A DNA stretch of 56,811 bases from Bacteroidales bacterium (GTDB lineage: Bacteria > Bacteroidota > Bacteroidia > Bacteroidales > P3). Of this stretch, positions 1,156 to 56,801 are shown piece by piece. Position numbers and translations under genes: made by a program. The notes beneath the pieces are model-generated. The model ran no database searches. It had not been told where the DNA came from and was given only the letters and a program-made list of their open reading frames with translations. Numbering within the stretch: the stretch's first letter is position 1; each line of letters begins with the position of its first letter. The stretch lies in contig JAGCVD010000027.1 of the NCBI GenBank assembly GCA_017962545.1, positions 1 to 56,811 of the forward strand, in the 5' to 3' direction.

Positions 1156-1167
1156 CGTGCAGCCTTT
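1137..1167 (+). terminator. Hairpin after the transglutaminase-like gene
   Basis: AAAGGCTGCACGT (1137-1149) pairs perfectly over 13 bp with ACGTGCAGCCTTT (1155-1167) around a 5-base loop that contains most of the stop codon. The following T-tract is weak on either strand, but the position between convergent genes fits a two-way terminator that also serves glmS. Confidence 0.65.
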
Positions 1168-1177
1168 GTGGTATTGT

Positions 1178-1213
1178 CTTAACTACTTAACTACTGTCTA
1201 CTTAACTACTTAT
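1178..1213. repeat. Short tandem repeat, unit about CTTAACTA
   Basis: Imperfect repeats of an 8-bp unit (CTTAACTA) fill the space between the hairpin and the glmS stop codon. This is one of several unrelated short-period repeats in the window. Confidence 0.6.
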
Positions 1214-3069: not shown

Positions 3070-3095
3070 AATTATTATGTTTTTAAAATAATTTG

Positions 3096-3127
3096 CAAAA
3101 GTACGAAGAATTATTGGATTGACAAAA
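3096..3127 (-). promoter_or_regulatory. Bacteroidota-type promoter of glmS
   Basis: On the minus strand TTTTG (3127-3123) is followed after about 19 bases by TACTTTTG (3103-3096). This matches the sigma-ABfr -33/-7 consensus TTTG...TAnnTTTG. The start codon lies 27 bases downstream. Confidence 0.75.
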
Positions 3128-3134
3128 TTTTAAC

Positions 3135-3159
3135 AAAAAAAGCCTCCTTTTGAGAAGCC
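3135..3159 (-). terminator. Possible terminator of the two-lipoprotein operon
   Basis: Read on the minus strand, GGCTTC(TCAAAAG)GAGGC followed by seven T gives a short stem with one G-U pair and a T-tract. It sits just after the 3211-4343 gene pair and directly before the glmS promoter. Confidence 0.5.
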
Positions 3160-3210
3160 ATTAACCAATCTTTGTGACAGGTGCCCGTACCCTGTTCTAG
3201 CTAGATGTTT

Positions 3211-3951
3211 TCACTCGCATTTGCCGTCGGGGGTGCAGACCTTGGGGGCATAGGAGAGGGTGTCGACACGGGTGTAGTCGAGGGCGGTCACTGGGACTGT
3301 GATGTAGCGTATGTCGGTGGGTTCCAACATTGCGGTGCTGTCGTTATAAATGGTGTAGGTGCATTTCATGCGGCCTTGCGGGTCGAGCATCACCGTGGTG
3401 GGGGTGCCGTTGGGACCGGTGATGGGCTGCTGCGGGGCGATGGCATTGACGACATTGTCCAGCCTGTTGTCGGCCTCTACCAATCCCAAATCCTCGAAGC
3501 TCGCACCGTAATGCCAGATAAGGTTCCACACTACCGTCCACATGTTCTTCACCATCAGTGGGCGGTACTGCGGCAGGGTGTCGTTGATCCAGTAGCGGGG
3601 CGAGGTGATACCATGGCGGCGGAACACTTCGTCCATATACTGTGCCGAACTGTAATCTGTCTCCACGAAGTACCAGCACACCTGGCTGCTGTCGCACTCG
3701 GCCATCTTTCTTGGGTATACGTCGCGCATGGCCAGTTCGCAGGGGCCGCAGCACGAACTGGTCAGTACCACAACCTTGTAATGCGTAGTATCGGCGGCTA
3801 TCAACTGCCGCAATTGCTCCACCGTGACGGGTGTAAGGTTCTCCATGGCAAGCACCCTCTGGTAGTTCTTCACCGTAGGCTTCTGCATTTTCACTGTCAT
3901 GCAGCCTGAAAACAGCACGGCGGCAAACAGCAATAATAAGTAACGTTTCAT
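3211..3951 (-). CDS. Lipoprotein with thioredoxin-like CGPC site
   Basis: This 246-residue protein begins with a lipoprotein signal (MKRYLLLLFAAVLFSGC, lipid-accepting Cys17). A hydrophobic strand then leads into SSCCGPCELAM, where C68-G-P-C71 is the thioredoxin-type active site. The spacing of strand, CxxC and helix, and the later LDPQGRMK segment, resemble TlpA/ResA-like envelope thioredoxins. This suggests a periplasm-side thiol oxidoreductase, but overall similarity is weak and the partner is unknown. It overlaps the upstream lipoprotein gene by 4 bases (ATGA), so the two are co-transcribed. Confidence 0.7.
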   Translation of the reverse strand: MKRYLLLLFAAVLFSGCMTVKMQKPTVKNYQRVLAMENLTPVTVEQLRQLIAADTTHYKVVVLTSSCCGPCELAMRDVYPRKMAECDSSQVCWYFVETDYSSAQYMDEVFRRHGITSPRYWINDTLPQYRPLMVKNMWTVVWNLIWHYGASFEDLGLVEADNRLDNVVNAIAPQQPITGPNGTPTTVMLDPQGRMKCTYTIYNDSTAMLEPTDIRYITVPVTALDYTRVDTLSYAPKVCTPDGKCE

Positions 3952-4343
3952 CTCAAACGTTCCATGGTGTACATGAAGTCCATGTCGATATTGGGGTCGG
4001 GCGAGGTCAGCACTAGCTTGTCGGCGGTGAGTTTATCTACCACGTAGTCGCCATGGATGCCGTTTTCGACATGCAGTATCTGCTTGCCGTTCTCTGTGGT
4101 GAGGATGTAGTGTTCCCACTTGGGTATGCAGTTGCACCGCATGTCGGCTATCATTACCGAGTCGGCGGTGAACTCCATGCTGATAGTCCCCGCCGGGATA
4201 TTCGCCTGCCCCGCGACGGTTATCTCATACGACTGCGCCGTGTTGGCCCAGTTGCCGATAATGAGGGTAGAATTGTCCTTGCCGCAGGCGGCGAAGAGTA
4301 TTGCTGCTCCCAGCAGGGCAATGATACTATCAATGTGTTTCAT
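3948..4343 (-). CDS. Small lipoprotein, lipocalin-like
   Basis: The 131 residues start with a signal peptide ending in LLGAAILFAAC (lipid Cys20) followed by GKDN. The mature part is beta-strand-rich (LIIGNWANTAQSYEITV, TISMEFTADSVMIAD) and recalls small lipocalin-like Bacteroidota lipoproteins. The LFAACGKD signal-peptide end is shared with the lipoproteins at 41526 and 42055. It is first in a two-gene operon with the thioredoxin-like lipoprotein. Function unknown. Confidence 0.7.
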   Translation of the reverse strand: MKHIDSIIALLGAAILFAACGKDNSTLIIGNWANTAQSYEITVAGQANIPAGTISMEFTADSVMIADMRCNCIPKWEHYILTTENGKQILHVENGIHGDYVVDKLTADKLVLTSPDPNIDMDFMYTMERLR

Positions 4344-4437
4344 AATATAATTATAACGTTTCGTTACAGGGTTTATTATTTACTTCTACTAATGTAGTCG
4401 TTTGAGAGGCCCAAAATCTTACACTCCTTGGCGTTTT

Positions 4438-6234
4438 TTATCGAATTACAGCCACTTTGCGGGCGAGGCGGTCGCCGACTTTGACCATATAGACACCGGT
4501 GGGCAGTGCCTCATTGTGAATTGTGCGGCCCATCATGTCGAAGATATGCACCGTCTCGCCGTCGGCACCTTCGACCACGATGCGGCCGTTGCTGACATAT
4601 ACCGCAGGCGAGGGCGCCTGCGTACCATCGTCGATGCCGTTGCAGTCTTCGTGGTATTTGTTAACGAACAGCCCCCAGTAGCTGTCGGCCAGCCATGCGT
4701 TGAGGCTGCCGCAGGGGATGAGGATAGTGCCAAGGCTGCCGATGTCATAGAGCGGGCCTTCGCCCACGATGGCGGGCGGAACCGCGTCGGAGAAGACAAG
4801 GCATCCGAGGTTGGCATGGTAGAATATTCCTTCGCCCAAAGTGTCGACAGGCCCGTTGAAACGCACATTCCGCAGGTTGTTGTTGCACGCGCCGAAGGCG
4901 GCTTCGCCAACCTTGCGCAGCGTGGCAGGGAAATCGAGAACTGTGATATGTGTGCTGCTCATTTGCGACAGCGCCCAGAAAGCATAGTCGCCAATTTCCT
5001 CGACATCATTACCCCAAGTGATGGAACAGAGTCGGATGCAGGAGTTGAAAGCCTCCTTGGGGATGACACGCAGCGAGTCGGGGATATCAATAGAAGTCAG
5101 CGCATAGCAATGTTCAAACGCGCCTTGTCCCATCGAAAGCAGTGTCTGCGGCATAGTGACGTTGGTCAGCCGGTCGTTCTCGGAAAAGGCTTTCCGTCCT
5201 ATCGACTGCAAGTGGGTTGGCAGCGTGATATTGGTGATTTGGCAGCCGTTGAAGCAGTTGTCGCTGATGTCGGTGACGCCCTCGGGAATATTGATATTGC
5301 GTAACCATGTATTGTTCTCGAAGCCGCCAAGCACTTTCACGTTGGGGTTCAGCGTCACGGTGGCACCCGACTTGTGACAGGAGACAAGCGTGTCGTAGCC
5401 CGCGCTGTAGAGCAGAAGGCCGTCCATCACATAATGGGTATTGCCGCTGGCGATGGTGAGGTTGGTCAACTGCGGGCAATAGGAGAATGGACAGATGCCG
5501 ATGCTAGTCACGGTCGCAGGGATGACAATGTTATTGACAGCCGAGCAACAATTGAAGGCAAAGGCGCCAATGCTCTCCAAACCCTCGGGCAGCGACACTG
5601 CAGTGGTGTGGCTGTTGAAAGCGAAGGCCATCTTGCCGATATGCCTCACATATGATGGCACGTTGATGGTTCCCGTCACCCCATCGGGTACGATGCAGAG
5701 TGTGAGGCTGTCCTTGCTGTAGAGCCAGCCGTCGATGGAATGGTAGTTATGGTTGTCCTCGTCCACGGTGATAGAGGCCAGATTCCGCGCCCAGAAAGCG
5801 CACTCGCCATACTCCTCGAAGCAAGCCGGCAGGTGCAGTGACGAGACGCAGGAATAGAGGAAGGCGTGGTCGCTGATGACCCGCAGTGAATCTGGAAGTT
5901 GCAGGGAGGTGAAATTGCAGTTGTAGAAGCAATACGAGCCGATGCTGCGGATGGTGGCCGGCAGCGTCATGCTGGTGACGTCGGTGCAACTCTCGAAAGC
6001 CGACTCACCCAAGGCCGTCACGGTATAGGTGGTGCCGTCGTGCTCCACCGTCTGCGGGATGGTGATAGCACCGCTGTAAGGGGTGTCCTGTAGGTAGTAG
6101 TTCGACAGAACTTCGACAGTCTGCTCAGAAGTGATACCATAGGCGATTCCACACGACTCAAAGTATTGCGCCGAAGCGGCGAAGGGAAGGCAAAGCACTG
6201 CGAGGAGTGCAAAGAGGGTTTTGGTGTGTTTCAT
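4438..6234 (-). CDS. BspA-like leucine-rich-repeat surface protein with T9SS type A sorting domain
   Basis: The protein has 598 residues. Residues 1-22 are a cleavable signal peptide (LCLPFAASAQ). From about 30 to 500 come repeats of the BspA/LRR_5 type (for example VTALGESAFESCTDVTSMTL, IPDSLRVIPKEAFNSCIRL), each with the I..Y.F..C..L pattern. The last ~70 residues are a por-type sorting domain (VHIFDMMGRTIHNEALPTGV, then a basic VRK-like end) that would send it through the type IX system to the surface. BspA-like proteins are generally adhesins; the ligand here is not predictable. The gene is monocistronic and no clear promoter was found upstream. Confidence 0.9.
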   Translation of the reverse strand: MKHTKTLFALLAVLCLPFAASAQYFESCGIAYGITSEQTVEVLSNYYLQDTPYSGAITIPQTVEHDGTTYTVTALGESAFESCTDVTSMTLPATIRSIGSYCFYNCNFTSLQLPDSLRVISDHAFLYSCVSSLHLPACFEEYGECAFWARNLASITVDEDNHNYHSIDGWLYSKDSLTLCIVPDGVTGTINVPSYVRHIGKMAFAFNSHTTAVSLPEGLESIGAFAFNCCSAVNNIVIPATVTSIGICPFSYCPQLTNLTIASGNTHYVMDGLLLYSAGYDTLVSCHKSGATVTLNPNVKVLGGFENNTWLRNINIPEGVTDISDNCFNGCQITNITLPTHLQSIGRKAFSENDRLTNVTMPQTLLSMGQGAFEHCYALTSIDIPDSLRVIPKEAFNSCIRLCSITWGNDVEEIGDYAFWALSQMSSTHITVLDFPATLRKVGEAAFGACNNNLRNVRFNGPVDTLGEGIFYHANLGCLVFSDAVPPAIVGEGPLYDIGSLGTILIPCGSLNAWLADSYWGLFVNKYHEDCNGIDDGTQAPSPAVYVSNGRIVVEGADGETVHIFDMMGRTIHNEALPTGVYMVKVGDRLARKVAVIR

Positions 6235-6649
6235 GGGTTTATCTTTTCATCGGATTAAACAAAATATGCTTCTACTACTAATAATAAATACCCATTTTTC
6301 GGGTGAAATCTGACATGGGGTGTGAATTTTTTTTTGAAAGTTTTTTGTAAAGAGTTGAGGGTCAGTGGGATGAAAAATGCCCCAAAAGTCCTCCGCAGGT
6401 GGGAGTGAGAAGAGGATATAGGGAGAAAGGGAGGGGATGATGGAAGAGTACAGAAAGGGTAATTTACGTCAAAACGCTCCATTTTCGGCTCTACCGAACT
6501 TCCACCAACCCAGCACTTTCGCTCAATCCCCTCTTACTCATCACCTACTCCTGTCATTATCCTCGATTTATGAAAATTTACTCGAGTAGGCAATAAGTAG
6601 TCGAATGTTACGTTATCGTCTGTAGTTATTAACTTTAATCTATAGGGCG
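6235..6649. other. Intergenic region of 415 bases without supported gene
   Basis: AT-rich leader DNA separates the divergent BspA-like and DUF6266 genes. A 75-codon minus-strand frame (6255-6482) has no signal, motif or start context that would support it. No convincing TAnnTTTG box was found; TAACTTTA near 6630 is the nearest candidate for the plus-strand gene. Confidence 0.5.
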
Positions 6650-7411
6650 ATGGCAAAGCAGACAGGAGGACACTTGGGCGGCTTCAGCGGCAAGCTGGGG
6701 ACCGTCGTGGGTTACATGTGGCGCGGACGGTGGTGCGTGAGGGCGCACAACCCCTATCCCGCCAATCCGCGCACCCCCAGGCAGGTGGAGCACCGCGAGA
6801 TGTTCCGGCAGGAGGTGCAGCTGGCGGCGACGATGCGTGCGGCCGTCAACAAGGGCTTCAAGGAGGTGTCGTACGAGCTGGGCATGACGCCGTACAACCT
6901 CTTCGTGCACCTGAACCAGCACGCCTTCTCTTTGAATGAGGGTATCTTCACGGTGGACTACAGCGCGTTGCGTCTGAGCACGGGGCCGCTGCAGGAGGCT
7001 GTGTACGGGGCGCCGGAGTGGACGGCGGACAATGTGCTGACGGTGCGTTTCGAGGGCGGCAGCGGGAGGTGGAACGACTATGTGCGGCTGTATGTCTACT
7101 GTCCCGAGTGGAGTACGGGCATACTGACGGCGCCCGTCTACCGCAAGGACAAGAAAGTCAGCGTCATGCTGTCGGATATGTTCGTGGGGCGCGAGGTGCA
7201 TGTCTACGGCCTGGTGAGCAACGACGAGGGGCTGTGGGCTGAGACGACCTATGTGGGCTCTCTCGTCTGCGACGAGACGGCCGAAGACAACGAGCCGCAG
7301 ACAGAGGAGAGTGCGCAGCCGCCGGTTCGCCCGTCGGCAGAAAGTAGGCCGACGGCCATAAATGATAAGGCTATACCTGCGTCGGCTTCCACAGGGCCGC
7401 CGGCGACGTAA
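6650..7411 (+). CDS. DUF6266 family protein
   Basis: The first ~200 residues show the pattern I recognise as DUF6266, found in Bacteroidota: a Gly-rich start (GGHLGGFSGKLGTVVGYMWR), an arginine/proline segment (NPRTPRQVEHREMF), then alpha and beta regions with NLFVHLNQHAF. There is no signal peptide. The last ~45 residues are acidic, then Pro/Ser/Ala-rich and probably disordered. The family has no established function that I know of. It stands alone between unrelated genes and is followed by repeats and a strong terminator. Confidence 0.7.
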   Translation: MAKQTGGHLGGFSGKLGTVVGYMWRGRWCVRAHNPYPANPRTPRQVEHREMFRQEVQLAATMRAAVNKGFKEVSYELGMTPYNLFVHLNQHAFSLNEGIFTVDYSALRLSTGPLQEAVYGAPEWTADNVLTVRFEGGSGRWNDYVRLYVYCPEWSTGILTAPVYRKDKKVSVMLSDMFVGREVHVYGLVSNDEGLWAETTYVGSLVCDETAEDNEPQTEESAQPPVRPSAESRPTAINDKAIPASASTGPPAT

Positions 7412-7431
7412 TGGGTGACATCGCGTAGGAC

Positions 7432-7516
7432 GAGTTGTTGAGTCTGTGAGACCTTGAGTCTTTGAGTCCTTGCGTCGTTGAGTCTATGAGACTTAGTGAC
7501 TCATTGACTTAGAGAC
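7432..7516. repeat. Degenerate tandem repeat around TTGAGTCT
   Basis: About ten imperfect copies of an 8-bp unit (TTGAGTCT, TTGAGTCC, ATGAGACT) fill the gap between the DUF6266 stop codon and the terminator. Confidence 0.6.
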
Positions 7517-7519
7517 AAG

Positions 7520-7549
7520 AAAAAAGGCTCTCCAATGAGAGCCTTTTTT
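7520..7549. terminator. Bidirectional intrinsic terminator
   Basis: GGCTCTC (7526-7532) pairs with GAGAGCC (7537-7543) around CAAT. Six A precede the stem and six T follow it, so it works on both strands. It closes the DUF6266 gene and the converging oxidoreductase operon. Confidence 0.9.
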
Positions 7550-7567
7550 ATGTAAGTCGGTAGATGC

Positions 7568-8119
7568 TTACAGCGTCTGGACGGCTTCGATGAGGCCTTT
7601 GCCGATTTCGATAGCTTCCTCGTTCTGGGGAATGAGGTTCCAGTGGCGCTGGGGCAGGGAGTGCTCCAGACCTTCGTGGATGTACTGCTTGTCGACAATG
7701 GGTTTCAGCTTGAGGAAGCCACCGAGGACCACCATGTTGAAGACCTTGCTGATGCCGAGCTCCTGGGCTTTGGCGGTAGCGGCGATCTTGTAGATGTTGA
7801 TGTCCTTGCGGGTGGGCTCGTGGGTGATGCCGTTGGGGTCGTAGATGAGGAGACCGCCAGGCTTCACGCTGCTCTCAAACTTGTCCAGCGACTGCTGGTT
7901 GAGGATGATGGCCGTGTCGAACTGGTTGATGATGGGCGAGCTGATGCGCTCATCGCTGATGATGACGGAGACGTTGGCGGTGCCGCCGCGCATCTCGGGG
8001 CCGTAGCTGGGCATCCAGCTGACCTCTTTGTCCTGCATAACTCCGGAGTAGGCAAGGATTTTACCCATCGAGAGGACACCCTGTCCACCGAAACCGGCTA
8101 TGATGATTTCTTCAGTCAT
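7568..8119 (-). CDS. 2-oxoacid:ferredoxin oxidoreductase, gamma subunit
   Basis: This is the 183-residue gamma domain of a TPP-dependent 2-oxoacid:ferredoxin oxidoreductase, which makes acyl-CoA and CO2 and passes electrons to ferredoxin. The signature GFGGQGV is at residues 9-15, followed by SYGPEMRGGTANVSV, both typical of KorC/VorC. It is last in the operon, 69 bases after the beta gene, and that gap is filled by a CCTTAAGG-type repeat. The 2-oxoacid used (2-oxoglutarate or branched-chain 2-oxoacids) cannot be fixed from the sequence. Confidence 0.93.
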   Translation of the reverse strand: MTEEIIIAGFGGQGVLSMGKILAYSGVMQDKEVSWMPSYGPEMRGGTANVSVIISDERISSPIINQFDTAIILNQQSLDKFESSVKPGGLLIYDPNGITHEPTRKDINIYKIAATAKAQELGISKVFNMVVLGGFLKLKPIVDKQYIHEGLEHSLPQRHWNLIPQNEEAIEIGKGLIEAVQTL

Positions 8120-46980: not shown

Positions 46981-47007
46981 TTTGTATGGAAAAAAGGTGT
47001 ATATTTG
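46981..47007 (+). promoter_or_regulatory. Promoter of the precursor peptide gene
   Basis: TATATTTG (47000-47007) matches the -7 consensus; TTTG at 46981-46984 lies 15 bases upstream, closer than usual. The predicted leader is about 65 bases. The intergenic 46858-46980 shows only a weak CTCACC/GGTGAG hairpin (46896-46917). Confidence 0.6.
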
Positions 47008-47080
47008 CAGTCGAAAAGCAAAACAAGGCGTAACCCGAAAAGCCTGCAATAGAGTAGGGACCATATAAACCTTATAAGCA

Positions 47081-47200
47081 ATGAACTCGCTTGATTTCAA
47101 GGTTGTTGCACAGGCTAAGGCCGAGAATGCAGTAAATGATTTCTGCAATTTCAGCCAGAATGGTCCTTGCGACATGTGCTGGGGCGACCTCAGCCTTTAA
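47081..47200 (+). CDS. Candidate RiPP precursor peptide, 39 residues, three Cys
   Basis: ATG at 47081 to TAA at 47198 encodes a 39-residue peptide. Residues 1-20 (beginning MNSLDFKVVAQ, Ala/Lys/Glu-rich, amphipathic) would be the leader. The C-terminal half contains C22, C30 and C33 in CNFSQNGPCDMCWGD, with D31, W34 and D36. It has its own promoter-like element and is followed at once by a strong terminator hairpin, then by a radical SAM peptide maturase. That is the usual layout of RiPP precursor genes (leader, Cys-rich core, high transcript level). There is no GG cleavage motif. A long alternative frame starting at 47136 for the maturase would hide this gene. The assignment is inferred from context; no homologue could be checked. 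Confidence 0.75.
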   Translation: MNSLDFKVVAQAKAENAVNDFCNFSQNGPCDMCWGDLSL

Positions 47201-47210
47201 TGGATTTGGG

Positions 47211-47240
47211 GAGCCGAGTCTTCTCGGCTCTCTTTTTTAT
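47211..47240 (+). terminator. Terminator/attenuator between precursor and maturase genes
   Basis: GAGCCGAG (47211-47218) pairs perfectly with CTCGGCTC (47223-47230) around TCTT; TCTTTTTTAT follows. Partial read-through would give much precursor mRNA and little enzyme mRNA. Confidence 0.9.
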
Positions 47241-47252
47241 CTTCTTTCCCGG

Positions 47253-48554
47253 ATGTACTGGTCGAAATACAATATCATATCCAAGTCGGAGAAATACGGC
47301 TATCTCCTCTATAACACCATGTCGCAGGTCTTTATCCAGATAGACAAGGACAGTATCGACCTGTGGCGGCGGCTGAAGGACGACCCCGACAGCTACGCCT
47401 CGTTCCAGCAGGCGGACTTCCTGCTGAAGAGCAGGATCATCGTCGCCAACGAGCATGACGATTTGAACCTCTACCTGGCCGATGTGCTGAAGAACCGCTA
47501 CAATTCTTCCGACCTCGCTTTGACCATTCTCCCCACGCGTGGATGCAATTTCGGATGTATCTATTGCTATGAGACCGACCGCCAGCCCATCGCGATGAAC
47601 GAGGAGACGGAGAAGGCCATTGTCCGCTTTGTTACCTCCAACCCCAACCTGAAACGTCTGAGCGTTGTGTGGTATGGTGGCGAGCCACTGTTGAATTTCT
47701 CTTCTGTCGAACGCTTGACGGCCGATTTCCTGAAGCTGGACGTCGACTATTCGGCCAAGATGGTCACCAACGGCTTCCTTCTCAGCAGGGACAAGGCCGT
47801 CAAACTGGCGGATTTGAGGATAAGGAATATCCAAGTGACATTGGATGGGCCGGAACGGATTCACGACCAGCGGCGTATGCTCCTCGACGGTAAGCCCACC
47901 TATAGGCGCATAATGGACAACCTCAAGACCCTGCTGGAGGTCAACGATACCATCACGGTGGACATACGCAGCAACATTGACCGAAGGAACATGGAAGAAT
48001 ACGCGGAGTTTGTCGACTCTTTCAAGAGGGAGATCGACAACCCCAGGGTAAACCTCTACCCGGGATTTGTCTCCGATTTGCTTTCTTCCGAGTGCGTCTC
48101 TCCCGAGCACAATATCTCCGAGGGTGGCTACAAGGCCCAGTTCGCGCTGGACCTTTTCGACCGCTATGGAATAGAAATCAAGTCGTTCCTGCCGAAGTTC
48201 AGGCGTCACAGCTGTGTGGCGAGCAAGTATTTCGCCTTCGTCATTGGTCCCGAAGGCGAGCTGTACAAGTGCTGGCGCATGGTGGGCAACCCCAAGCACA
48301 CCCTGGGCAATGTCCGCGACGGAGTGACCCGGATGCCGGCCTTCGTCGACTATATCGTCGGCTCCGACTATACCCGCGACCCCAAGTGCCTGGCGTGCGA
48401 GTTTATCGCGCTTTGCGGCGGCGGCTGTCCGCTGGTGAGACTCAGGAACAGGGACGAGCATCTCGACCTCAACCACTGCTGTCCCGAGAAGACGCACATG
48501 GAGAAGTTGATGGAGATGCGTTACGAGATGTACCTGAAAGCAGGGCAGGCATGA
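47253..48554 (+). CDS. Radical SAM/SPASM peptide maturase 1
   Basis: The start is set at 47253 (MYWSKYNIISKSEKYGYLLY), just after the terminator. The frame extends to 47136, but that would run through the hairpin and the precursor gene. 433 residues. Residues 1-90 look like the N-terminal peptide-recognition part of such maturases. The SAM cluster is C98-x3-C102-x2-C105 (TRGCNFGCIYCYE), with GGEP at 142-145. The SPASM domain holds C321, C340 (GELYKC), C379, C382, C388, C392, C409 and C410, enough for two auxiliary 4Fe-4S clusters. These enzymes typically form thioether or C-C links in a peptide. ATGA overlap to the next gene. Confidence 0.92.
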   Translation: MYWSKYNIISKSEKYGYLLYNTMSQVFIQIDKDSIDLWRRLKDDPDSYASFQQADFLLKSRIIVANEHDDLNLYLADVLKNRYNSSDLALTILPTRGCNFGCIYCYETDRQPIAMNEETEKAIVRFVTSNPNLKRLSVVWYGGEPLLNFSSVERLTADFLKLDVDYSAKMVTNGFLLSRDKAVKLADLRIRNIQVTLDGPERIHDQRRMLLDGKPTYRRIMDNLKTLLEVNDTITVDIRSNIDRRNMEEYAEFVDSFKREIDNPRVNLYPGFVSDLLSSECVSPEHNISEGGYKAQFALDLFDRYGIEIKSFLPKFRRHSCVASKYFAFVIGPEGELYKCWRMVGNPKHTLGNVRDGVTRMPAFVDYIVGSDYTRDPKCLACEFIALCGGGCPLVRLRNRDEHLDLNHCCPEKTHMEKLMEMRYEMYLKAGQA

Positions 48555-49624
48555 AGGTCTACATCGAGACATACGGCTGCAGGATGAACGTCTGCGACAG
48601 CGAGTTGCTGCTGTCTCTCGTCGCCTCGTGCGGCTATGAATACACAACCTCCATCCAGGATGCCGACCTGATTGTCCTCAATTGCTGTTCGGTGCGCGAG
48701 ATAGGCCATCAGAAGGCCTATGCCCGTCTAGACGACATCCGCAAGGAGGGGCTCGATGCCAAGCGTATTGCCGTGTGCGGCTGCTTCGCCACGCAGGTCG
48801 ACGAACGGTTCTTCGTACAATATCCTTGGGTCGACCTTGTTTTAGGGCCCGATAACTACCGTCAGCTGCCTCGTTTGCTGCAGTCGGAGGCACGCCACCG
48901 GATAGTCAACGGTTATCAGGCCGACGAGCTGTACGACGATATACTCCCGTTGCGCCTTCTGGAAGACGGGAAGTCGGCGGCCATCACGGTCATGAAGGGC
49001 TGCAATCAAGGCTGCTCCTACTGCATCGAGCCGCTGACGCGTGGCGTGGAGAAGAGCCGCGCGATGGCCTCGGTGCTGGGAGAATGCCGACGGGCGGTAG
49101 AGCAAGGATACAAGGAGATAACCTTCGTCGGCCATATCGTCGACCGCTATGGAGGAGGGCTTGACAAGCTGCTCGACCGCGCCGCCGCCGACTTCCCGGA
49201 GACGAGTTTCAGGTTCCTCTCGTCCCATCCCCTCACCTTCGGTGACGAGATAGTGAACAGCATAGGGCAGCACAGCAACATTCAGAGGTTGGTGCATCTG
49301 CCGGTGCAGTCGGGCTCGGACAAGATACTGAAAGCCATGCATCGCGGCTATACGCGACAGCAGTATGTCGACCGCCTGTGCCACATAAGAAAGGCGCTGC
49401 CCGACATCAAGGTGGTTACCGACATCATGGTGGGTTTCTGCGGCGAGACGGAAGAGGACTTTGCGCAGACGCTCGACCTTGTCAGGGAACTTCGGTTCGA
49501 CGACATCAATCTGTTTATGTTCTCCATGAGGCAGAACACCCCAGCCTCACGCCTCCTATGCGACGATGTCCCCGAGGAGGTGAAACAACAAAGATACAGC
49601 CGGGTAAAGGAATTGCTGCGATGA
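48551..49624 (+). CDS. MiaB-like radical SAM methylthiotransferase lacking TRAM domain
   Basis: The start at 48551 (MKVYIETYGCRMNVCDSE) overlaps the maturase stop (ATGA) and aligns with the MiaB N-terminus. 357 residues. The UPF0004 domain has the three auxiliary-cluster Cys, C10, C46 (NCCSVRE) and C78 (CGCFATQ). The SAM cluster is C151-x3-C155-x2-C158 (KGCNQGCSYCIEP). LPVQSGSDKILKAMHRGYTR and MVGFCGETEEDF are family motifs. MiaB proteins have about 440 residues and end in an RNA-binding TRAM domain; this one stops after VPEEVKQQRYSRVKELLR, right at the end of the SAM domain. Without TRAM a tRNA substrate is unlikely, so the peptide encoded upstream is the favoured substrate (inference). Confidence 0.9.
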   Translation: MKVYIETYGCRMNVCDSELLLSLVASCGYEYTTSIQDADLIVLNCCSVREIGHQKAYARLDDIRKEGLDAKRIAVCGCFATQVDERFFVQYPWVDLVLGPDNYRQLPRLLQSEARHRIVNGYQADELYDDILPLRLLEDGKSAAITVMKGCNQGCSYCIEPLTRGVEKSRAMASVLGECRRAVEQGYKEITFVGHIVDRYGGGLDKLLDRAAADFPETSFRFLSSHPLTFGDEIVNSIGQHSNIQRLVHLPVQSGSDKILKAMHRGYTRQQYVDRLCHIRKALPDIKVVTDIMVGFCGETEEDFAQTLDLVRELRFDDINLFMFSMRQNTPASRLLCDDVPEEVKQQRYSRVKELLR

Positions 49625-50904
49625 GGATTAATCTGCTGAATATTGGCTGTTTCAAGAACCTGGTGGACAGCGAGCATCTGATGAGGGCGCTCGCCACCGC
49701 CGGATGCGACGTCCATTTCGGCGAATTGACCGATTATTCCGATGTCGCCATCATCAATACCTGTGGCTTCATAGGTGATGCCGACGACGCTTCTCTCGCC
49801 ACTGTCAAGCGATATGCCGACCTGAAACGCAAAGGGCTCTGCGGCGCTCTCTGGATTATGGGTTGCTATTCCCAGAAGCTGGGAGAGCGGCTGAAGACGC
49901 TGGTTCCGGAGGTGGACAGCATCTACGGGAACTTCAACTGGGAGAGGATACCCATGGATTTAGGACTCCACAGCGCCGTCGACAAGACCCGGACAATCAC
50001 CACCCCGAGCCACTATGCCTACGTGAAGATTTCGGAAGGCTGCAACCAGCCCTGCTCCTACTGCATCAAACCTGTGCTCAACGGCCCCCTGAAGAGTCTC
50101 CGGCAGGAGGACATCGTCGATGAATGCCGATGGCTCGTGGAGCAAGGGGTATGTGAGATACAGCTTGTGGCGCAGAACCTCACCAGCTATGGTATGGACC
50201 TGAACGGGAAGAAGCAGATAGCAGAGCTGGTGGAGCGCATCGCCGACATTGCCGGCATCCAATGGATTCGTCTGCATTATGCTTACCCTCTGGGCTTCCC
50301 CATGGAGCTGCTGCGGGTAATCAAGGAGCGCCCCAATGTGTGCAACTACCTCGATATGGCCATCCAGCATTGCAATACGCGAATGCTCAAGTTGATGCGT
50401 CGCGGTATGACGAGGGAGCAGCTGGAAGAGCTGATAGCGGCCATAAGAGAGGCTGTTCCGGGAATCTACCTCAGGACCACCGTGATGACTGGCCACCCCG
50501 GCGAGACGGAAGAGGACTATCAGGAACTGTACCGCTTTGTCGAGGAGCAGCGCTTCGAGCGGCTGGGCGTCTTCGCCTACTCGCACCAGTCGCCCTCGTA
50601 TGCCTATTCCCATTACCAGGACGACATCCCGGAGCGTGTGAAACGGAACCGCGCCATAGGCCTGATGAATCTGCAGAAAGAGATATACAAGGATCTCCAT
50701 CGCGGACTTATAGGGACGACGCAACGGGTGGTGATCGACAGCGTGGATGGCGACAAGGCCTACGCTCGCAGCGAATACAGCACGCCGATGGCAGATCCGA
50801 AAATCGTCGTCAAGTTGCAGGGAAGCGTTCCGGAGGCAGGTCGCTTCTACACTGTCCGGCTCACGGAGGATATGGGCAAAGATATGGGTGGCGTTTTGGT
50901 TTGA
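49621..50904 (+). CDS. RimO-like radical SAM methylthiotransferase (diverged paralogue)
   Basis: The start at 49621 gives an ATGA overlap and the RimO-type N-terminus (NIGCFKNLVDSE). 427 residues. Auxiliary Cys: C10, C48 (NTCGFIGDA), C82 (MGCYSQ). SAM cluster: C141-x3-C145-x2-C148. WIRLHYAYP and the C-terminal TRAM-like domain (~365-427, RVVIDSVDGDKAYARSEYST) are as in Bacteroidota RimO. RimO adds a methylthio group to the beta-carbon of an Asp in ribosomal protein S12, so the family already acts on protein. Several usually conserved places differ here (CSYCIKPVLNGPLKSL, AIQHCNTRML, YSHQSPSYAY). In this operon I infer a second, peptide-directed RimO. It could still be the only RimO of the cell. 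Confidence 0.9.
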   Translation: MRINLLNIGCFKNLVDSEHLMRALATAGCDVHFGELTDYSDVAIINTCGFIGDADDASLATVKRYADLKRKGLCGALWIMGCYSQKLGERLKTLVPEVDSIYGNFNWERIPMDLGLHSAVDKTRTITTPSHYAYVKISEGCNQPCSYCIKPVLNGPLKSLRQEDIVDECRWLVEQGVCEIQLVAQNLTSYGMDLNGKKQIAELVERIADIAGIQWIRLHYAYPLGFPMELLRVIKERPNVCNYLDMAIQHCNTRMLKLMRRGMTREQLEELIAAIREAVPGIYLRTTVMTGHPGETEEDYQELYRFVEEQRFERLGVFAYSHQSPSYAYSHYQDDIPERVKRNRAIGLMNLQKEIYKDLHRGLIGTTQRVVIDSVDGDKAYARSEYSTPMADPKIVVKLQGSVPEAGRFYTVRLTEDMGKDMGGVLV

Positions 50905-50920
50905 AAATGAGAATTGAGAT

Positions 50921-52159
50921 ATGATAAGTCGCGACAAATACTTCATACTGCAGGATGCCGACGGGCAGCACTACCTCTACGCTTCTTTGTCCGACTATTT
51001 CGTCAAGACGGATTGCGATTCGGTCGACAAGCTGCCGGCAGAGGTGATGGAGGCCATCCCACAGCAGGAGCGCGAGGTTTTGTGGACAAACCACATGCCG
51101 GATGCGCTGACCAATCTGATGGTCCTGCCCAACCACAAATGCAATTTCCACTGCTCCTATTGCTTCTCGGCGAAAGGCCGTAGCAACGAGGAACTGGCTC
51201 CGGAGACGCTGCATACGGTCGTCAGCTACTTCTTCTCGCCCAAACGGCTGGGCGACAGGAAGGCGACGCTCTCCATCCTCGGAGGCGGCGAACCGCTCAT
51301 CTCCTGGCCGCTGGTCAAACAGGCGGTGCTGTGGGCCGAGGCGACCTATGCGGGACCTCGTCCGCTCAGGATATCCATCGTCACCAACTGCTCGCTGATT
51401 GACGACGAGTTCATCGCATTCTGCAAGGAACATCAGATATATGTCACCGCCTCGTTCGACATCCTGGAGGACTTGCAGAACAAGCAGCGGGCGCAATACC
51501 AGCGGGTGCTCGAGAACATCATAGCGCTGACCCGTGAGGGCATCCCTGTCGACATCACGGCGGTCATCACCAAGGACTCCATCCATCGCCAGCGGGAGAT
51601 GGTCGAGCATGTCGCCGCCACAGTTCCCCGCGTGAGCCGCCTCTCGTTCCGCTACCTCTTGTCCGATTCATATTTCCGTGACTCCGACGACCGTGACAGC
51701 TATTACAAAGCTTTCATCGACAACTACTTCTCGGCGCGTGCGAGGGCGCAGCAACTGGGCATCACGCTGACTTGCCCCTACGAGAATCTGATGGCTTTCC
51801 CCGTCGACCGCCATTGTCCCGGCAAGTTCGTCTTGACGCCGTCGGGCGCCATATCCACCTGCTTCTGCGTCTCGTCGCCCAAGGAGGCGCAGTTCGACAA
51901 ATTCACCTTCGGAAAGGTCGAGAACGGGACGCGCCTCACACTCGATGAGCAGAAGCTTGACGCCATCCTTTCCTGCGACAACAGCAGTCGCGACGAATGC
52001 CGCTCTTGTCCCGCCCGTTGGCATTGCGCCGGCGGATGCTACAGCGACAACCACTTCATGACGCCCGACGAGAGGGCTTCCTATTGCCGCTCGATGGTTT
52101 ACTTCCTGACCCAATACCTGATTAAGACACACAAGGAATGCATTGGAAATACTATATAA
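50921..52159 (+). CDS. Radical SAM/SPASM peptide maturase 2
   Basis: 412 residues. A ~65-residue N-terminal part is followed by the SAM cluster C74-x3-C78-x2-C81 (HKCNFHCSYCFSAKG), and ILGGGEPLISW. The C-terminal SPASM region has HCPGKFVLTPSGAISTCFC, CRSCPARWHCAGGCYSDN and a final SYCRSM. The gene lies 16 bases after the RimO-like gene and overlaps the next by 22 bases. It differs clearly from maturase 1, so the two probably make different modifications. The chemistry cannot be read from the sequence. Confidence 0.9.
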   Translation: MISRDKYFILQDADGQHYLYASLSDYFVKTDCDSVDKLPAEVMEAIPQQEREVLWTNHMPDALTNLMVLPNHKCNFHCSYCFSAKGRSNEELAPETLHTVVSYFFSPKRLGDRKATLSILGGGEPLISWPLVKQAVLWAEATYAGPRPLRISIVTNCSLIDDEFIAFCKEHQIYVTASFDILEDLQNKQRAQYQRVLENIIALTREGIPVDITAVITKDSIHRQREMVEHVAATVPRVSRLSFRYLLSDSYFRDSDDRDSYYKAFIDNYFSARARAQQLGITLTCPYENLMAFPVDRHCPGKFVLTPSGAISTCFCVSSPKEAQFDKFTFGKVENGTRLTLDEQKLDAILSCDNSSRDECRSCPARWHCAGGCYSDNHFMTPDERASYCRSMVYFLTQYLIKTHKECIGNTI

Positions 52160-53385
52160 CGTCCAACGGCTGCGCCGTCTTGCTGCACGAGACAGAGCGC
52201 ATCTCCAAATACTTCTGGCTCAACGGCTGGGACGAGGTCTCCTCGCCTTCCGAGGCCGATTTTGTCGTGGTGACCTGCTGCGGTTTCACGCAGAACGAGG
52301 AAGATGTGGCCATCAATATGATTCGTTCGGCCTACGGCTCCACCGCCGCCGGCGCCCGCTTTGTCGTCAGCGGATGCCTCCCGGGCTTCGCCCGCGAAAG
52401 AATCTTGGCGACGGCACCCCACGCAACGCTCTTGTCCTATCAGGATCTCGGCCGTCTCGACGAGTTGATTGATGCCGTTATCCCCTTCGCCGACGTCTAC
52501 TTCAATGTGAAACCGCCGGCGCAGCAGCCCGCTGACGCAACCACGCCTGCCGACCCCGATGAGCTCGTCTCGCGGAAAATCGACGATTGGTGTGGCGGCA
52601 ACACCTGCTGGGAGCAGTACCGCTTCTGCACCATGCACCGCTATCTGTGGCAGGAGGACGATGTGTTCCAGATCAAGGTCTCTTACGGCTGTCCGGGCAA
52701 CTGCACCTATTGCGCCACGAAGCTGGGCATAGGCAACTTCCGTAGTGTCGGCAAAGCCGAGGTGCTGTGCCAATACAAGGAGGGCGTGGGGCTGGGTTAC
52801 CGTCATTTCCTGCTTATCGGCGACGAGATAGGCTCCTACGGCTCGGATTTCGGCGACAATATCGTCCATCTGCTGGAAGAGATGTACGCCCTGTGTCCGT
52901 CGGCGAAGGTCTCCATACGCTATATCCACCCCGACATCCTGGTGCGCTACTATGAAGGGCTGCGCTTCTACTTTTCGGTCGGCTTCGTGGATTATTTCTG
53001 CTGCGCCATCCAGTCGGCGAGTCCCAGGATTCTGAAGCTGATGGGACGCAACGCCGATGTCGAGCCCTTTGTGAGATGCATGGAAGACCTCCGGCGCAAT
53101 GCCTACCCCGTGAACATCCACACCCAAATCATCGTGGGCTTCCCCACCGAGACGGCCGACGACTTCCTCCTGACCTTGCAGGCTCTGATTCGCTGCGACT
53201 TCGACCATATCAACATCAATATGTACAGCCCCCGCAAAGGAACCCGCGCCTATAGCCTGACCGACGATATCAGCCCCGAGGAGAAGCAGCGCAGAAGGGC
53301 CATCGTCAAAGCCTACCTCGACAACAACAAGCGGGCCAAGCTCTACGACGCCGTCAAACAATCCGTCTTGAATTCCGCGAAGTGA
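52138..53385 (+). CDS. Diverged methylthiotransferase-like radical SAM protein
   Basis: 415 residues from an ATG at 52138 with AAGGA just upstream. It keeps the methylthiotransferase layout: auxiliary Cys C12 (SNGCAVLLHETE), C48 (VTCCGFTQNEED) and C80 (VSGCLPGF), and SAM cluster C185-x3-C189-x2-C192 (YGCPGNCTYCATK). MRNA-style motifs IIVGFPTETADDFLL and YSPRKGTRAY are present. The linker between the two domains is longer than usual and has four extra Cys/Trp-rich positions (WCGGNTCWEQYRFC). It has no TRAM domain. It is too diverged to place as MiaB, RimO or MtaB. It overlaps the upstream and downstream genes and is part of the RiPP-like operon. Confidence 0.85.
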   Translation: MHWKYYITSNGCAVLLHETERISKYFWLNGWDEVSSPSEADFVVVTCCGFTQNEEDVAINMIRSAYGSTAAGARFVVSGCLPGFARERILATAPHATLLSYQDLGRLDELIDAVIPFADVYFNVKPPAQQPADATTPADPDELVSRKIDDWCGGNTCWEQYRFCTMHRYLWQEDDVFQIKVSYGCPGNCTYCATKLGIGNFRSVGKAEVLCQYKEGVGLGYRHFLLIGDEIGSYGSDFGDNIVHLLEEMYALCPSAKVSIRYIHPDILVRYYEGLRFYFSVGFVDYFCCAIQSASPRILKLMGRNADVEPFVRCMEDLRRNAYPVNIHTQIIVGFPTETADDFLLTLQALIRCDFDHININMYSPRKGTRAYSLTDDISPEEKQRRRAIVKAYLDNNKRAKLYDAVKQSVLNSAK

Positions 53386-54665
53386 AACGCCTGTTCCGCA
53401 TAGCCCCCTTTACGCCACCGGCTTCCAGGCCGGTCTTTGGCAACAATTACGAGCCCTCGCTGTCGCGCGATATGCTGCACCCCCGCGACGGTGAATGGGT
53501 GGCCTGCGGCAAGCCCGTGTCGCTGGACAGCGTCCTGCCCCGTGCGACGCATTACTTTCCTGAGTATGTGCTGGCCAACGGGAAAGTGATTGACCCTCCG
53601 GGCAAGATTGTGCAATGGCGCGAGATGCAGCAGGATGGCATCTGCCATTGTGCCTGTCAGATTCATGGGCCTGAGGGCGACCAACTCTGGCTCTACAAGT
53701 CGTCCGCCACCGTCGACGAGCAGGAATGTCTCGCCACCTTTACGCATCGGAGAATCACGTTCGACTTTGTCGACGGCAGGCTTCGCTGGAGTTTGGAGCC
53801 CGCCATGCCGGCAGCCTCTCCGGTGGCCTCGCTGAGTGCTCCACGTGAGTTTACGGCCGACTACGACTACGACGTGGTGCCGTGTGGCGACCTTAAAACC
53901 CTCGTACTCTCGCCGAAGACGAAGAGCGCGCCCCTGCCGGCCGTCACCGTCTGCCTGGGAGGCCCTTTCATCGGTGTCCCCGAGGTGTGGCAGAAGGATA
54001 CCGTCTATCAGCTGTTCTTGAATGCGGGCTATGCCGTCGTCATCCCCTTGCGGAGGGGCGTCCAGGGCGTCAAGGTCGGCTGGGAGGAGGCTTTGGAAGG
54101 GAACTACGGCGTTGCCGACGTCGAGGATATAGTTGCCGGCACACGTGCCGCGATAGAGGCATTCCCTTTCATCGACAAGACGAGAGTCGGTATTTATGGC
54201 GCTTCATATGGCGGCTATACAGCGCTGCTGGCGGCGGAGGCGACGGCTGGCGACGCCCTGTTCAATGCCGTCTGTCTGGTCAGCTCCATGACCGACCCCC
54301 GCCGTTACCCCCAGGAGTCGCAGGGCGACGAGGAAGAGATCCGCAGCACCTACCGTCATGCGCCGTCGCCGCTCGACAGGATAGGGCTGCTGGAAGCGCC
54401 GCTCCAGATAATCCACATGGTCGACGACGAGACGGTGTGGTTCGGCCAATCTGTCAGGCTTTACAACAAAATTGTCGGCAGCGGAAAGGGCGACGGCGTC
54501 CGGATGACGCTCTTCGGCGGCCCTCACACCATGGACATCCCCCACCGTCCGGCGCTCGAAGCCGCCATCCTGACCTTCTTCACCGCACCCACCGCCTGCG
54601 CTCCATCCTTATTCTGTCTGCGTTTCAGCGAAAAATCGGGTCGAGGGTCGGTCGAGGGTCGGTAG
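53382..54665 (+). CDS. S9-type serine peptidase (prolyl-oligopeptidase fold), probable leader peptidase
   Basis: 427 residues from a GTG overlapping the previous stop (GTGA). There is no signal peptide, so it is cytosolic. Residues 1-180 form an unusual beta-rich N-terminal region (VFGNNYEPSLSRDMLHPRDG) instead of a full propeller. The alpha/beta-hydrolase domain has the nucleophile Ser275 in YGASYGGYT, the acid around D348/D349 (MVDDETVWFG), and His382 in GGPHTMD. In this operon it could cut the leader from the modified peptide or degrade it (inference). The last residues (SEKSGRGSVEGR) are encoded by a GGTCGAGGGTCGG repeat, so the natural C-terminus may have been replaced. Confidence 0.85.
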   Translation: MKRLFRIAPFTPPASRPVFGNNYEPSLSRDMLHPRDGEWVACGKPVSLDSVLPRATHYFPEYVLANGKVIDPPGKIVQWREMQQDGICHCACQIHGPEGDQLWLYKSSATVDEQECLATFTHRRITFDFVDGRLRWSLEPAMPAASPVASLSAPREFTADYDYDVVPCGDLKTLVLSPKTKSAPLPAVTVCLGGPFIGVPEVWQKDTVYQLFLNAGYAVVIPLRRGVQGVKVGWEEALEGNYGVADVEDIVAGTRAAIEAFPFIDKTRVGIYGASYGGYTALLAAEATAGDALFNAVCLVSSMTDPRRYPQESQGDEEEIRSTYRHAPSPLDRIGLLEAPLQIIHMVDDETVWFGQSVRLYNKIVGSGKGDGVRMTLFGGPHTMDIPHRPALEAAILTFFTAPTACAPSLFCLRFSEKSGRGSVEGR

Positions 54666-55125: not shown

Positions 55126-56085
55126 CTAATCAATGTTTACTTCCCAGTGTCCGCCTTTGTCACCACCAATGCGCTGAATCAGTCCTTCGGCTTTCAGTTG
55201 TCGAATGACTTTCTTCACGCCACTTTCGGAAAGCCCAGTCACTTCCTGTAGTTCATGAATGGTAATAGAGGGATTATGGCGTATGTATGTGAGAATTTTC
55301 TGGTTACTTTTCTGGTTACTTTTCTGGTTACTTTCTTCCATTTCCATTAGAGCCTGCTTTAAGCATTGCAGCATAAAGGTAATGAAAACGGTACTGTTGG
55401 CCTCCGAGTCACTCTTGGCGATGGCAGCATAATACTCCTGTTGGTGTTCCTTGACGATTGTCTCCACAGGAATCCATGCAAAGATTGGCTTCCATTGCAT
55501 TAGCAAGAGTGTTTGCCACATACGTCCCATACGTCCGTTACCATCGGCGAAAGGGTGAATGAACTCAAACTCATAGTGGAAAACACATGAACTAACAAGA
55601 GGATGTACCTTTGTCTGCTTCACCCATCCCAGCAAATCTGCCATCAGAAGCGGAACGCGCTGGGCTGGTGGGGCCATGTGGATGCACTTCTGTCCATCGA
55701 ATACTCCCACTCCTCCTTGGCGATAGCGGCCATTTTCGTTCACCAAGTCCGTCATCATCAGCTTATGCGCTTTTAGCAAGTCTTTCTCCTTATAAGGATT
55801 TAGCTCCATCAGTAGTTCGTATGCGTCAATGGCATTTTTCACCTCCTGTATCTCATTTGGAGGTCCCAATACACGTTTACCTTCCACAATAGCTGTCACC
55901 TGATCTAAAGAGAGAGAGTTGTTTTCAATAGCCAACGACGACTGGATGGTCTTGATGCGGTTCTCTTTACGCAGATGAGGGGCTGGCAGATGGTCTGCCG
56001 TAGCTGTAAGATGACCGACCTGCTCAGCAATATCTGCTATCAATGACGTAATATCGTCCGTTATTGTAAAAGGTGGTATATACAT
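55126..56085 (-). CDS. Fic family protein (AMPylase-type) with winged-helix C-terminus
   Basis: Fic enzymes usually transfer AMP to a target protein hydroxyl. The 319-residue protein has the active-site motif HPFADGNGRMGR (H177-R188). A class II-type inhibitory motif lies near the N-terminus (S50-LAI-E54-N55), expected to block ATP binding. The C-terminal 55 residues are a winged helix-turn-helix (ILTYIRHNPSITIHELQEVT). Between them is (SNQK)x3 at 252-263, encoded by 12-bp repeats. No antitoxin gene is adjacent. The gene is AT-richer than the rest of the window, consistent with transfer. A TATCTTTG box is at 56180-56187. Confidence 0.92.
   Translation of the reverse strand: MYIPPFTITDDITSLIADIAEQVGHLTATADHLPAPHLRKENRIKTIQSSLAIENNSLSLDQVTAIVEGKRVLGPPNEIQEVKNAIDAYELLMELNPYKEKDLLKAHKLMMTDLVNENGRYRQGGVGVFDGQKCIHMAPPAQRVPLLMADLLGWVKQTKVHPLVSSCVFHYEFEFIHPFADGNGRMGRMWQTLLLMQWKPIFAWIPVETIVKEHQQEYYAAIAKSDSEANSTVFITFMLQCLKQALMEMEESNQKSNQKSNQKILTYIRHNPSITIHELQEVTGLSESGVKKVIRQLKAEGLIQRIGGDKGGHWEVNID
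55296..55331. repeat. Three exact 12-bp tandem repeats inside the Fic gene
   Basis: TTTTCTGGTTAC three times; on the coding strand this is (SNQK)3 in the linker between the Fic and DNA-binding domains. The unit is a multiple of three, so copy changes alter linker length without frameshift. Confidence 0.9.
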
Positions 56086-56330: not shown

Positions 56331-56801
56331 ATGGACGAGCACCCTTTCATAGAACTGATTGAGAAACACGATGCGGCCATCAACCGTGTGTGTCGCTCCT
56401 TTTGCCGAGATACTGAGGACAGGAAGGATTTGCGGCAAGAGATCCTGATGCACCTTTGGATAGGATGGAAGGATTATCGTCCCGACCATAAAGCTATTAC
56501 CTGGGTTTACCGTGTGGCGCTGAACACAGCCATCAGTTGGCGACGGCAGAAGAAGAGGCAAATTGAGACGTTATCAATTGATGGTTTTGACTTGCCTGAG
56601 GATTCCGTTCTGCGGGAGCAGTCAGTTCATCTGAAAGCATTGATTGCCCAGCTTCCAGTTGGGGATCAGAGGCTCATCAATCTTTACCTCGATGGCTTTT
56701 CGACAGAAGAGATAAGCCGCCTGATGGGAACCAGCCAAACCAATGTTACTACACGCATCGGGCGCATCAAAGAAAAACTACGCAAAATAAAAGATATATG
56801 A
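56331..56801 (+). CDS. ECF-type RNA polymerase sigma factor
   Basis: 156 residues. Sigma region 2 (residues ~8-75) contains RKDLRQEILMHLW and ITWVYRVALNTAISWRR. Region 4 (~100-150) contains LPVGDQRLINLYLDGFSTEE and a GTSQTNVTTRIGRIKEKL recognition helix. The length and two-region layout are those of ECF sigma factors. Its stop overlaps an ATG (ATGA) at 56798 that opens a further gene, often the anti-sigma factor or a membrane protein in such pairs. The DNA is somewhat AT-richer than the centre of the window. Confidence 0.93.
   Translation: MDEHPFIELIEKHDAAINRVCRSFCRDTEDRKDLRQEILMHLWIGWKDYRPDHKAITWVYRVALNTAISWRRQKKRQIETLSIDGFDLPEDSVLREQSVHLKALIAQLPVGDQRLINLYLDGFSTEEISRLMGTSQTNVTTRIGRIKEKLRKIKDI

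Follow-up and report, generated by a model that had tools for sequence, protein, structure and literature searches.

A Bacteroidota operon of two radical SAM/SPASM enzymes and three methylthiotransferase relatives behind a short peptide gene: a likely source of an undescribed sulfur-rich peptide

Introduction

Methylthiotransferases are textbook modifiers of tRNA and of ribosomal protein S12. What three of their relatives are doing in one operon, beside two radical S-adenosylmethionine (SAM) enzymes of the SPASM maturase type and behind a gene for a 39-residue peptide, is the question raised by contig JAGCVD010000027.1 of a Bacteroidales bacterium (assembly GCA_017962545.1); the whole stretch analyzed, 56,811 nt, is called the window. 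The operon likely makes an undescribed sulfur-rich peptide. We consider it probable that this is an operon for a ribosomally synthesized and post-translationally modified peptide (RiPP), as a preliminary description of the locus had proposed, with the peptide as substrate of both the SPASM enzymes (rSAM1, rSAM2) and the methylthiotransferase relatives (MTT1, MTT2, MTT3), and with a cofactor-like product more likely than a bacteriocin. The observations behind this reading are gene content, conservation, homology, and an RNA element at the head of the operon.

Recurrence of the operon and an invariant peptide core

The gene order peptide, rSAM1, MTT1, MTT2, rSAM2, MTT3 is kept in five of five operons from two bacterial families: that of the window, those of two genomes of the same genus (G439 and G491), and those of Bacteroides congonensis and Mediterranea massiliensis. 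B. congonensis belongs to a different family from the window's genome, since the latter's family comprises 190 genomes in all and that of B. congonensis more than 399; M. massiliensis presumably belongs with B. congonensis. Because the arrangement recurs in four other genomes, the association goes beyond chance, and the neighborhood check suggested by the preliminary description, pairing of the methylthiotransferase relatives with SPASM genes and a short peptide, came out in its favor in two bacterial families.

Alignment of the five precursors needs only one gap, a single residue long and close to the N-terminus, and the last 12 residues, GPCDMCWGDLSL, are identical in all five. Over ten pairwise comparisons, the 12 codons of this core show 44 synonymous and no non-synonymous differences, against 30 synonymous and 166 non-synonymous in the leader; the pairs are not independent, the G439 and G491 peptides being 92% identical. 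This contrast in codon differences indicates that the open reading frame (ORF) is translated and that its C-terminus is under strong purifying selection. Absence or poor conservation of the small ORF in homologous operons had been named in advance as the finding that would tell against a RiPP pathway; instead the ORF is present in all five, its C-terminal 12 residues invariant under synonymous change. The label "Cys-rich" was generous: Cys is present, at three in 39 residues, and only C30 and C33 are invariant. The core offers two possible crosslink spacings, C30-D31 and C33-W-G-D36, and Asp36 stands directly before Leu37. The peptide occurs in a single copy in its own genome.

Operon layout

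The claim of one tight operon, a short peptide gene followed by six enzyme genes, is borne out by the coordinates (Table 1). Overlaps are 4 nt for rSAM1/MTT1, MTT1/MTT2 and MTT3/S9 and 22 nt for rSAM2/MTT3, and the 16 nt between MTT2 and rSAM2 are the sole gap among the enzyme genes. The other features first described also hold: CX3CX2C in all five radical SAM proteins and three N-terminal auxiliary Cys in all three methylthiotransferase-like proteins, each in five of five operons, and an S9 peptidase, which matches PF00326. The peptidase shows no signal peptide by eye, and its probable role is leader or core processing. The 52-nt spacer between the peptide gene and rSAM1 carries a strong hairpin, terminator-like and possibly attenuating; a hairpin 3' of the peptide ORF is predicted in all five operons, its sequence differing between them. 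The G+C content of the operon, 57.7%, is close to the 55.4% of the remaining window. The RNA element, the aminopeptidases of the relatives and the sister clusters described below were not part of the preliminary description.

Table 1. Features of the operon and its flanks, as positions within the 56,811-nt window
Feature	Position	Strand	Basis and remarks
TATATTTG, Bacteroidota -7-like box	47000..47007	+	weak; no -33 box at expected spacing
DUF805b cis-regulatory RNA (RF02914)	47025..47060	+	48.0 bits, gathering 35.6; 5' untranslated region (UTR), hairpin and probable pseudoknot
Putative RiPP precursor peptide, 39 aa	47081..47200	+	leader 1-27, invariant core 28-39
Hairpin then T run, terminator-like	47208..47233	+	folding prediction; between precursor and rSAM1
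rSAM1, radical SAM/SPASM maturase type, 433 aa	47253..48554	+	nearest Clo7bot/TIGR04463 families
MTT1, MiaB-related methylthiotransferase-like, 357 aa	48551..49624	+	family models, tree; lacks C-terminal region of relatives
MTT2, RimO-related methylthiotransferase-like with TRAM_2, 427 aa	49621..50904	+	family models, tree
rSAM2, second radical SAM/SPASM maturase type, 412 aa	50921..52159	+	family models
MTT3, deeply diverged MiaB/RimO-fold protein without TRAM, 415 aa	52138..53385	+	tree, predicted fold
S9-type peptidase, GTG start	53382..54665	+	PF00326 match
Fic-type protein	55126-56085	-	downstream; no sign of belonging to operon
Sigma-70 family protein	56331-56801	+	downstream; no sign of belonging to operon

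Three methylthiotransferase relatives beside the housekeeping enzymes

The labels MiaB-like, RimO-like and diverged, given to the three proteins at the outset, agree with family models and, for MTT3, predicted fold. Against TIGR00089 (MiaB/RimO family, cut-off 251 bits), MTT1 (347.5) and MTT2 (334) score above the cut-off and MTT3 (207.2) below, as it does for every methylthiotransferase model in NCBIfam. MTT2 passes the RimO equivalog TIGR01125 by about two bits (358.9 vs 356.95; 377.1 for the B. congonensis copy, the scores covering these two of the five operons), and MTT1 stays below the MiaB equivalog TIGR01574 (331.1 of 355.3 bits; 337.1 in B. congonensis). The window's own genome, 81% complete, encodes six UPF0004 proteins, three of them outside the operon: a separate MiaB (443.5 bits) and RimO (504.7 bits) by NCBIfam, and a third that by exclusion is assigned as MtaB and that clusters with the third protein found outside the operon in the other genomes. 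Each of the four relatives likewise has six UPF0004 proteins, and G422, a genome without an operon of the window type, has three.

In a tree of 33 rows, the MTT1 set (support 100/99) is sister to the MiaB set, joined at 97/94, and the MTT2 set (100/100) adjoins the RimO proteins of B. congonensis and M. massiliensis (97/96). The MTT3 set (100/100) forms a deep clade on a long branch, where long branches meet and placement is unsure. The branching order of MTT1 and of MTT3 is identical, window, (B. congonensis, M. massiliensis), (G439, G491), and MTT2 departs from it by a weakly supported fork (89/63). By this tree MTT1 and MTT2 are extra paralogs of MiaB and RimO, and MTT3 is a deep clade. MTT1 resembles MiaB in both catalytic domains and all six Cys; it differs in its score and in the TRAM domain, recognized in one of five MTT1 proteins, the window copy lacking the C-terminal region altogether. 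MTT2 resembles RimO in its UPF0004, radical SAM and TRAM_2 domains (TRAM recognized in both copies tested), its six Cys and its equivalog score; it differs in belonging to a distinct clade linked to the peptide operon and in sharing its genome with a separate RimO.

It might be supposed that the three relatives arose by gene duplication and act on tRNA or S12, their place beside a peptide gene and two SPASM genes being incidental. The bare margin by which MTT2 passes the RimO equivalog, and its position beside two RimO proteins in the tree, would fit. Yet the host has both MiaB and RimO, each outscoring its operon copy by over 100 bits, the linkage is kept in all five operons, and TRAM was found neither in window MTT1 nor in MTT3; we regard this explanation as highly improbable. 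Since a separate RimO exists in the genome, action of MTT2 on S12 in particular appears unlikely.

A more serious rival retains the RiPP pathway and assigns the methylthiotransferase relatives other radical chemistry: they might insert sulfur but transfer no methyl group, form C-S or C-C crosslinks, or add thiols alone to yield a metal-binding peptide. In its favor, MTT3 is a deep separate clade with 12 Cys invariant in the five operons, those beyond the six cluster ligands lying at 157, 288, 289, 314, 353 and one of 47/48, and with TRAM in none of the three copies tested; window MTT1 lacks TRAM too. But all six cluster Cys (three auxiliary, three radical SAM) are kept in MTT1, MTT2 and MTT3 of every operon, MTT2 passes as RimO, and the predicted MTT3 model (predicted local distance difference test score, pLDDT, of 72; five-row alignment), which ends in a helix, is closest to MiaB, MtaB and RimO structures at a template modeling (TM) score of about 0.7. 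We consider this chemistry unlikely, while giving it distinctly more weight than a housekeeping role.

The SPASM enzymes

The two SPASM enzymes match 73 (rSAM1) and 66 (rSAM2) NCBIfam models, many of them SPASM RiPP maturases, and among the best 25 for each no specific cut-off is reached; the only one attained is that of the general SPASM domain, by rSAM1 (53.9 vs 27 bits). The best specific scores of rSAM1 are 218.7 of 600 bits for Clo7bot (TIGR04334) and 216.3 of 525 bits for TIGR04463, and the ranthipeptide maturase PapB (NF047865, cut-off 340 bits) gives 126.2 for rSAM1 and 86.5 for rSAM2. The operon is thus like the ranthipeptide and sactipeptide systems (PapB, CteB, Clo7bot, TIGR04463) in maturase homology, in a short precursor made up of a leader and a core containing Cys and Asp, and in its precursor-first order; it differs by the three added methylthiotransferase relatives and by scores below the specific cut-offs. 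Identity of rSAM1 to its operon relatives is 68-72%.

Taxonomic distribution

At E 1e-30, rSAM1 finds matches in five of the 190 genomes of its family: its own, G439 (69%), G491 (68%), and G524 and G564 at 27-28%; G439 carries an additional copy at 30% identity. Eight plasmid records match rSAM1, at 25-32% identity only. For rSAM2 at E 1e-30, the 120 same-genus genomes yield eight matches in four genomes, own included, three in operons of the window type and five in an array in G422, and all eight lie downstream of the DUF805b RNA and a short Cys-containing peptide; at E 1e-40 among 295 class genomes, only its own genome is hit. A scan of species-genome contigs with the MTT3 alignment returned four loci, in B. 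congonensis, M. massiliensis, G491 and G439, using two short peptide patterns and so able to miss members. Against 393 genomes of the order MTT3 has no close relative beyond its own genome, only matches of 25-32% in five genomes. The loci around these matches (L025-L029) were not counted as members, since they show no similar layout among ORFs of at least 90 residues. Four of them (L025, L026, L027, L029) encode MTT3-like UPF0004/radical SAM proteins outside such peptide operons, near glycosyltransferase or unrelated genes, which appear to form a separate uncharacterized methylthiotransferase-like group. No MTT3 relative was found in viral contigs, and a core-pattern match in one of them (L156) was rejected as chance, being out of frame with the covering ORF.

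The accessory genes vary. G439 and G491 carry the whole operon plus an extra gene of 287-288 codons before the S9 gene, and S9 is present in four of the five operons (window, G439, G491, M. massiliensis). B. congonensis, M. massiliensis and G439 share an aminopeptidase of one type, which we take to be M42, below all family cut-offs; M. massiliensis also encodes an M18 aminopeptidase (407 vs 356 bits).

The operon is rare and patchy: its rSAM2 occurs in three of the 120 same-genus genomes, and the exact core pattern in one of 399 sampled genomes of the B. congonensis family, B. congonensis itself. Putative horizontal transfer is likely. Such spread, with the precursor-first layout, would also suit an antimicrobial peptide deployed against competitors; this rival concerns role only and overlaps our preferred explanation. 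Set against it, the core is fully invariant from genus to genus, and neither an exporter nor an immunity gene was recognized among the operon genes, none having been searched for separately; because the core is so fixed and no exporter was recognized, a small conserved peptide resembling a cofactor, metallophore or signal would be the more likely product than a variable bacteriocin. We hold an antimicrobial role to be rather unlikely, if the least so of the rivals.

The DUF805b RNA element

All five operons start with a DUF805b RNA, 20-23 nt upstream of the peptide start codon, as full-length matches of 48.0, 47.6, 53.9, 48.1 and 47.9 bits, each above the gathering threshold. No second copy was found in the window's genome, B. 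congonensis or M. massiliensis; there are two copies in G439 and four in G491. The element is not specific to the peptide pathway, because it is common elsewhere: at E 0.001 it turns up in 134 of 189 genomes of the family and in 118 of 395 of the phylum, of which 101 and 76, respectively, exceed the cut-off. Of 65 sites, 63 have an ATG-initiated ORF, at a median of 23 nt downstream; 42 of these first ORFs are of at most 110 residues, a simple pattern marks 24 as lipoprotein-like, and ten are short signal-less peptides, two of which belong to the operons of G439 and G491. In many Bacteroidota genomes (L033-L151) the element precedes small lipoprotein, outer-membrane, phage-like and peptide genes.

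Of 98 distinct elements, 91 allow Watson-Crick pairing between the base preceding CCGAAAA and the one following GAGTAGG, with all four pair types represented, against a mean of 41.6 and a maximum of 55 in a shuffle control that does not keep relatedness. The next pair outward shows no covariation: it forms in 31 of 98, and the shuffled sets average 27.0 with a maximum of 35. Because the one covarying pair adjoins a near-invariant CC and GG, an H-type pseudoknot over the known hairpin is likely, an addition to the family's consensus line, which displays the hairpin only. The -7-like box upstream was called on what we take to be the Bacteroidota -7 consensus; within 130 nt upstream of DUF805b no such box was found in the four relatives, and none of the five operons has a complete Bacteroidota promoter pattern there. 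In the open-licence literature on DUF805, none of the matches listed concerns the RNA, by title or start of abstract.

Sister clusters

Related arrangements occur in the same genus. In G422, a DUF805b element is followed by a 29-residue Cys-rich peptide, MITEVFKVKDTKVDEYSCCDHCGGCRCNN, and five tandem rSAM2-family genes up to the contig end (L123, G422:C54 ~360-8018), which appears to be a second multi-radical-SAM RiPP-like cluster. In G451, G515 and G503 (L113, L115, L150), DUF805b is followed by a 51-56-residue peptide containing a C..CWGG stretch and by a pair of other radical SAM genes, which in L115, where they were scanned, are of maturase type; this looks like a third RiPP-like cluster type. 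L115 and L150 have a further gene with a membrane-anchored look, in L115 one without a Pfam match. More short Cys-containing or GG-leader peptides stand behind DUF805b at L096, L117, L120 and L130 and are candidate RiPP or bacteriocin precursors. DUF805b repeatedly heads RiPP-like genes, among many others, and CxxCWG recurs.

These clusters help in judging whether the short ORF could instead be a regulatory leader, an attenuator or ribosome-arrest peptide controlling the operon and no substrate at all. An invariant C-terminus running to the stop codon, a hairpin after the ORF in all five operons, terminator-like in the window, and an RNA element upstream are what such a leader would show. However, the SPASM enzymes are of RiPP-maturase type, the peptides of L113, L115 and L150, each before a radical SAM pair, share CxxCWGG and differ elsewhere, and the 29-residue peptide of G422 is another Cys-rich sequence that precedes rSAM2-type genes. 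A regulatory leader is very unlikely in our judgment.

Proposed pathway

Given the strict linkage and the type of the enzymes, we infer that the peptide is their common substrate; each chemical step below and the role of the product are likewise inferred. The precursor mRNA would carry the DUF805b RNA in its 5' UTR, and the hairpin behind the precursor gene would probably raise the precursor over the enzymes. On the core, rSAM1 and rSAM2 would most likely form Cys-to-carbon thioethers, of the Cys30/Cys33 to Asp31/Asp36 type, or crosslinks at other C-H positions; PapB joins Cys to Asp in Cys-Xn-Asp for n of 0-6 (PMC9413430). The MTT proteins, as tRNA and ribosomal-protein methylthiotransferase paralogs recruited to a peptide, would most likely place methylthio groups on unactivated carbons. 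The sites are guesses. RimO methylthiolates the beta carbon of Asp, which in S12 is followed by Leu, and MTT2 may do the same on the core; MiaB acts on an aromatic C-H, which makes Trp34 a candidate for MTT1, perhaps on the Trp ring. Peptidases, S9 in the window operon and aminopeptidases in relatives, may then remove the leader. In its full form, a RiPP class in which three MiaB/RimO paralogs put sulfur groups on an invariant 12-residue core beside two SPASM enzymes, the product being a cofactor-like peptide with crosslinks and several methylthio groups whose production DUF805b governs, the proposal is tentative, and we hold it at slightly less than even confidence.

Several points weigh against the pathway. 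The known operons number five, two of them from near relatives, and the peptide matched no family in NCBIfam or Pfam. Homology to methylthiotransferases does not prove methylthio transfer to the peptide. Window MTT1 lacks some 80 C-terminal residues present in all four relatives; a frameshift was set aside, and natural shortening is more likely, because the MTT1 stop overlaps the MTT2 start in ATGA. S9 was not found in the 21-kb B. congonensis locus, so that the operons have no constant processing peptidase, and in G439 the extra gene matched no family model. No exporter or immunity gene was noticed on reading the operon genes, with no separate search made. On whether rSAM1 carries a RiPP recognition element, its predicted model, of poor quality (mean pLDDT 51), gives N-terminal strands then helices at low confidence only.

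Significance

In the pyrroloquinoline quinone (PQQ) and mycofactocin pathways, a fixed core peptide is matured by radical SAM enzymes and processed by peptidases into a small product. The accessory genes of these pathways were not recognized in the window operon, and the likeness would be a functional analogy only. The preliminary description did not recognize a methylthiotransferase, SPASM and short-peptide combination as a described class, and none was found in the open-licence literature, where titles and abstract starts of the matches listed name no methylthiotransferase-containing RiPP, subscription journals being outside that scope. The main text of a Bacteroidales RiPP survey (PMC10352776) nowhere mentions methylthio, MiaB or RimO, and in PMC8326336, MiaB, RimO and methylthiotransferase appear in the reference list only. 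Because MTT2 passes the RimO equivalog cut-off, automatic annotation could label it RimO and so hide the pathway.

With a core of only 12 residues, named cultured strains (B. congonensis and M. massiliensis, both presumably of human gut origin) and exact predicted mass shifts, the pathway is directly testable. The calculated [M+H]+ of the unmodified core is 1296.506; a methylthio group would raise the mass by 45.988 Da and a crosslink would lower it by 2.016 Da, and a core with three such groups and two crosslinks is predicted at a neutral mass of 1429.430. Its association with DUF805b supplies functional context for an RNA family whose role we did not find described in the open-licence literature. 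If the proposal is true, three methylthiotransferases recruited to a peptide natural product would represent new RiPP enzymology, with sulfur placed on unactivated carbons at fixed sites of a short peptide, beside SPASM crosslinking.

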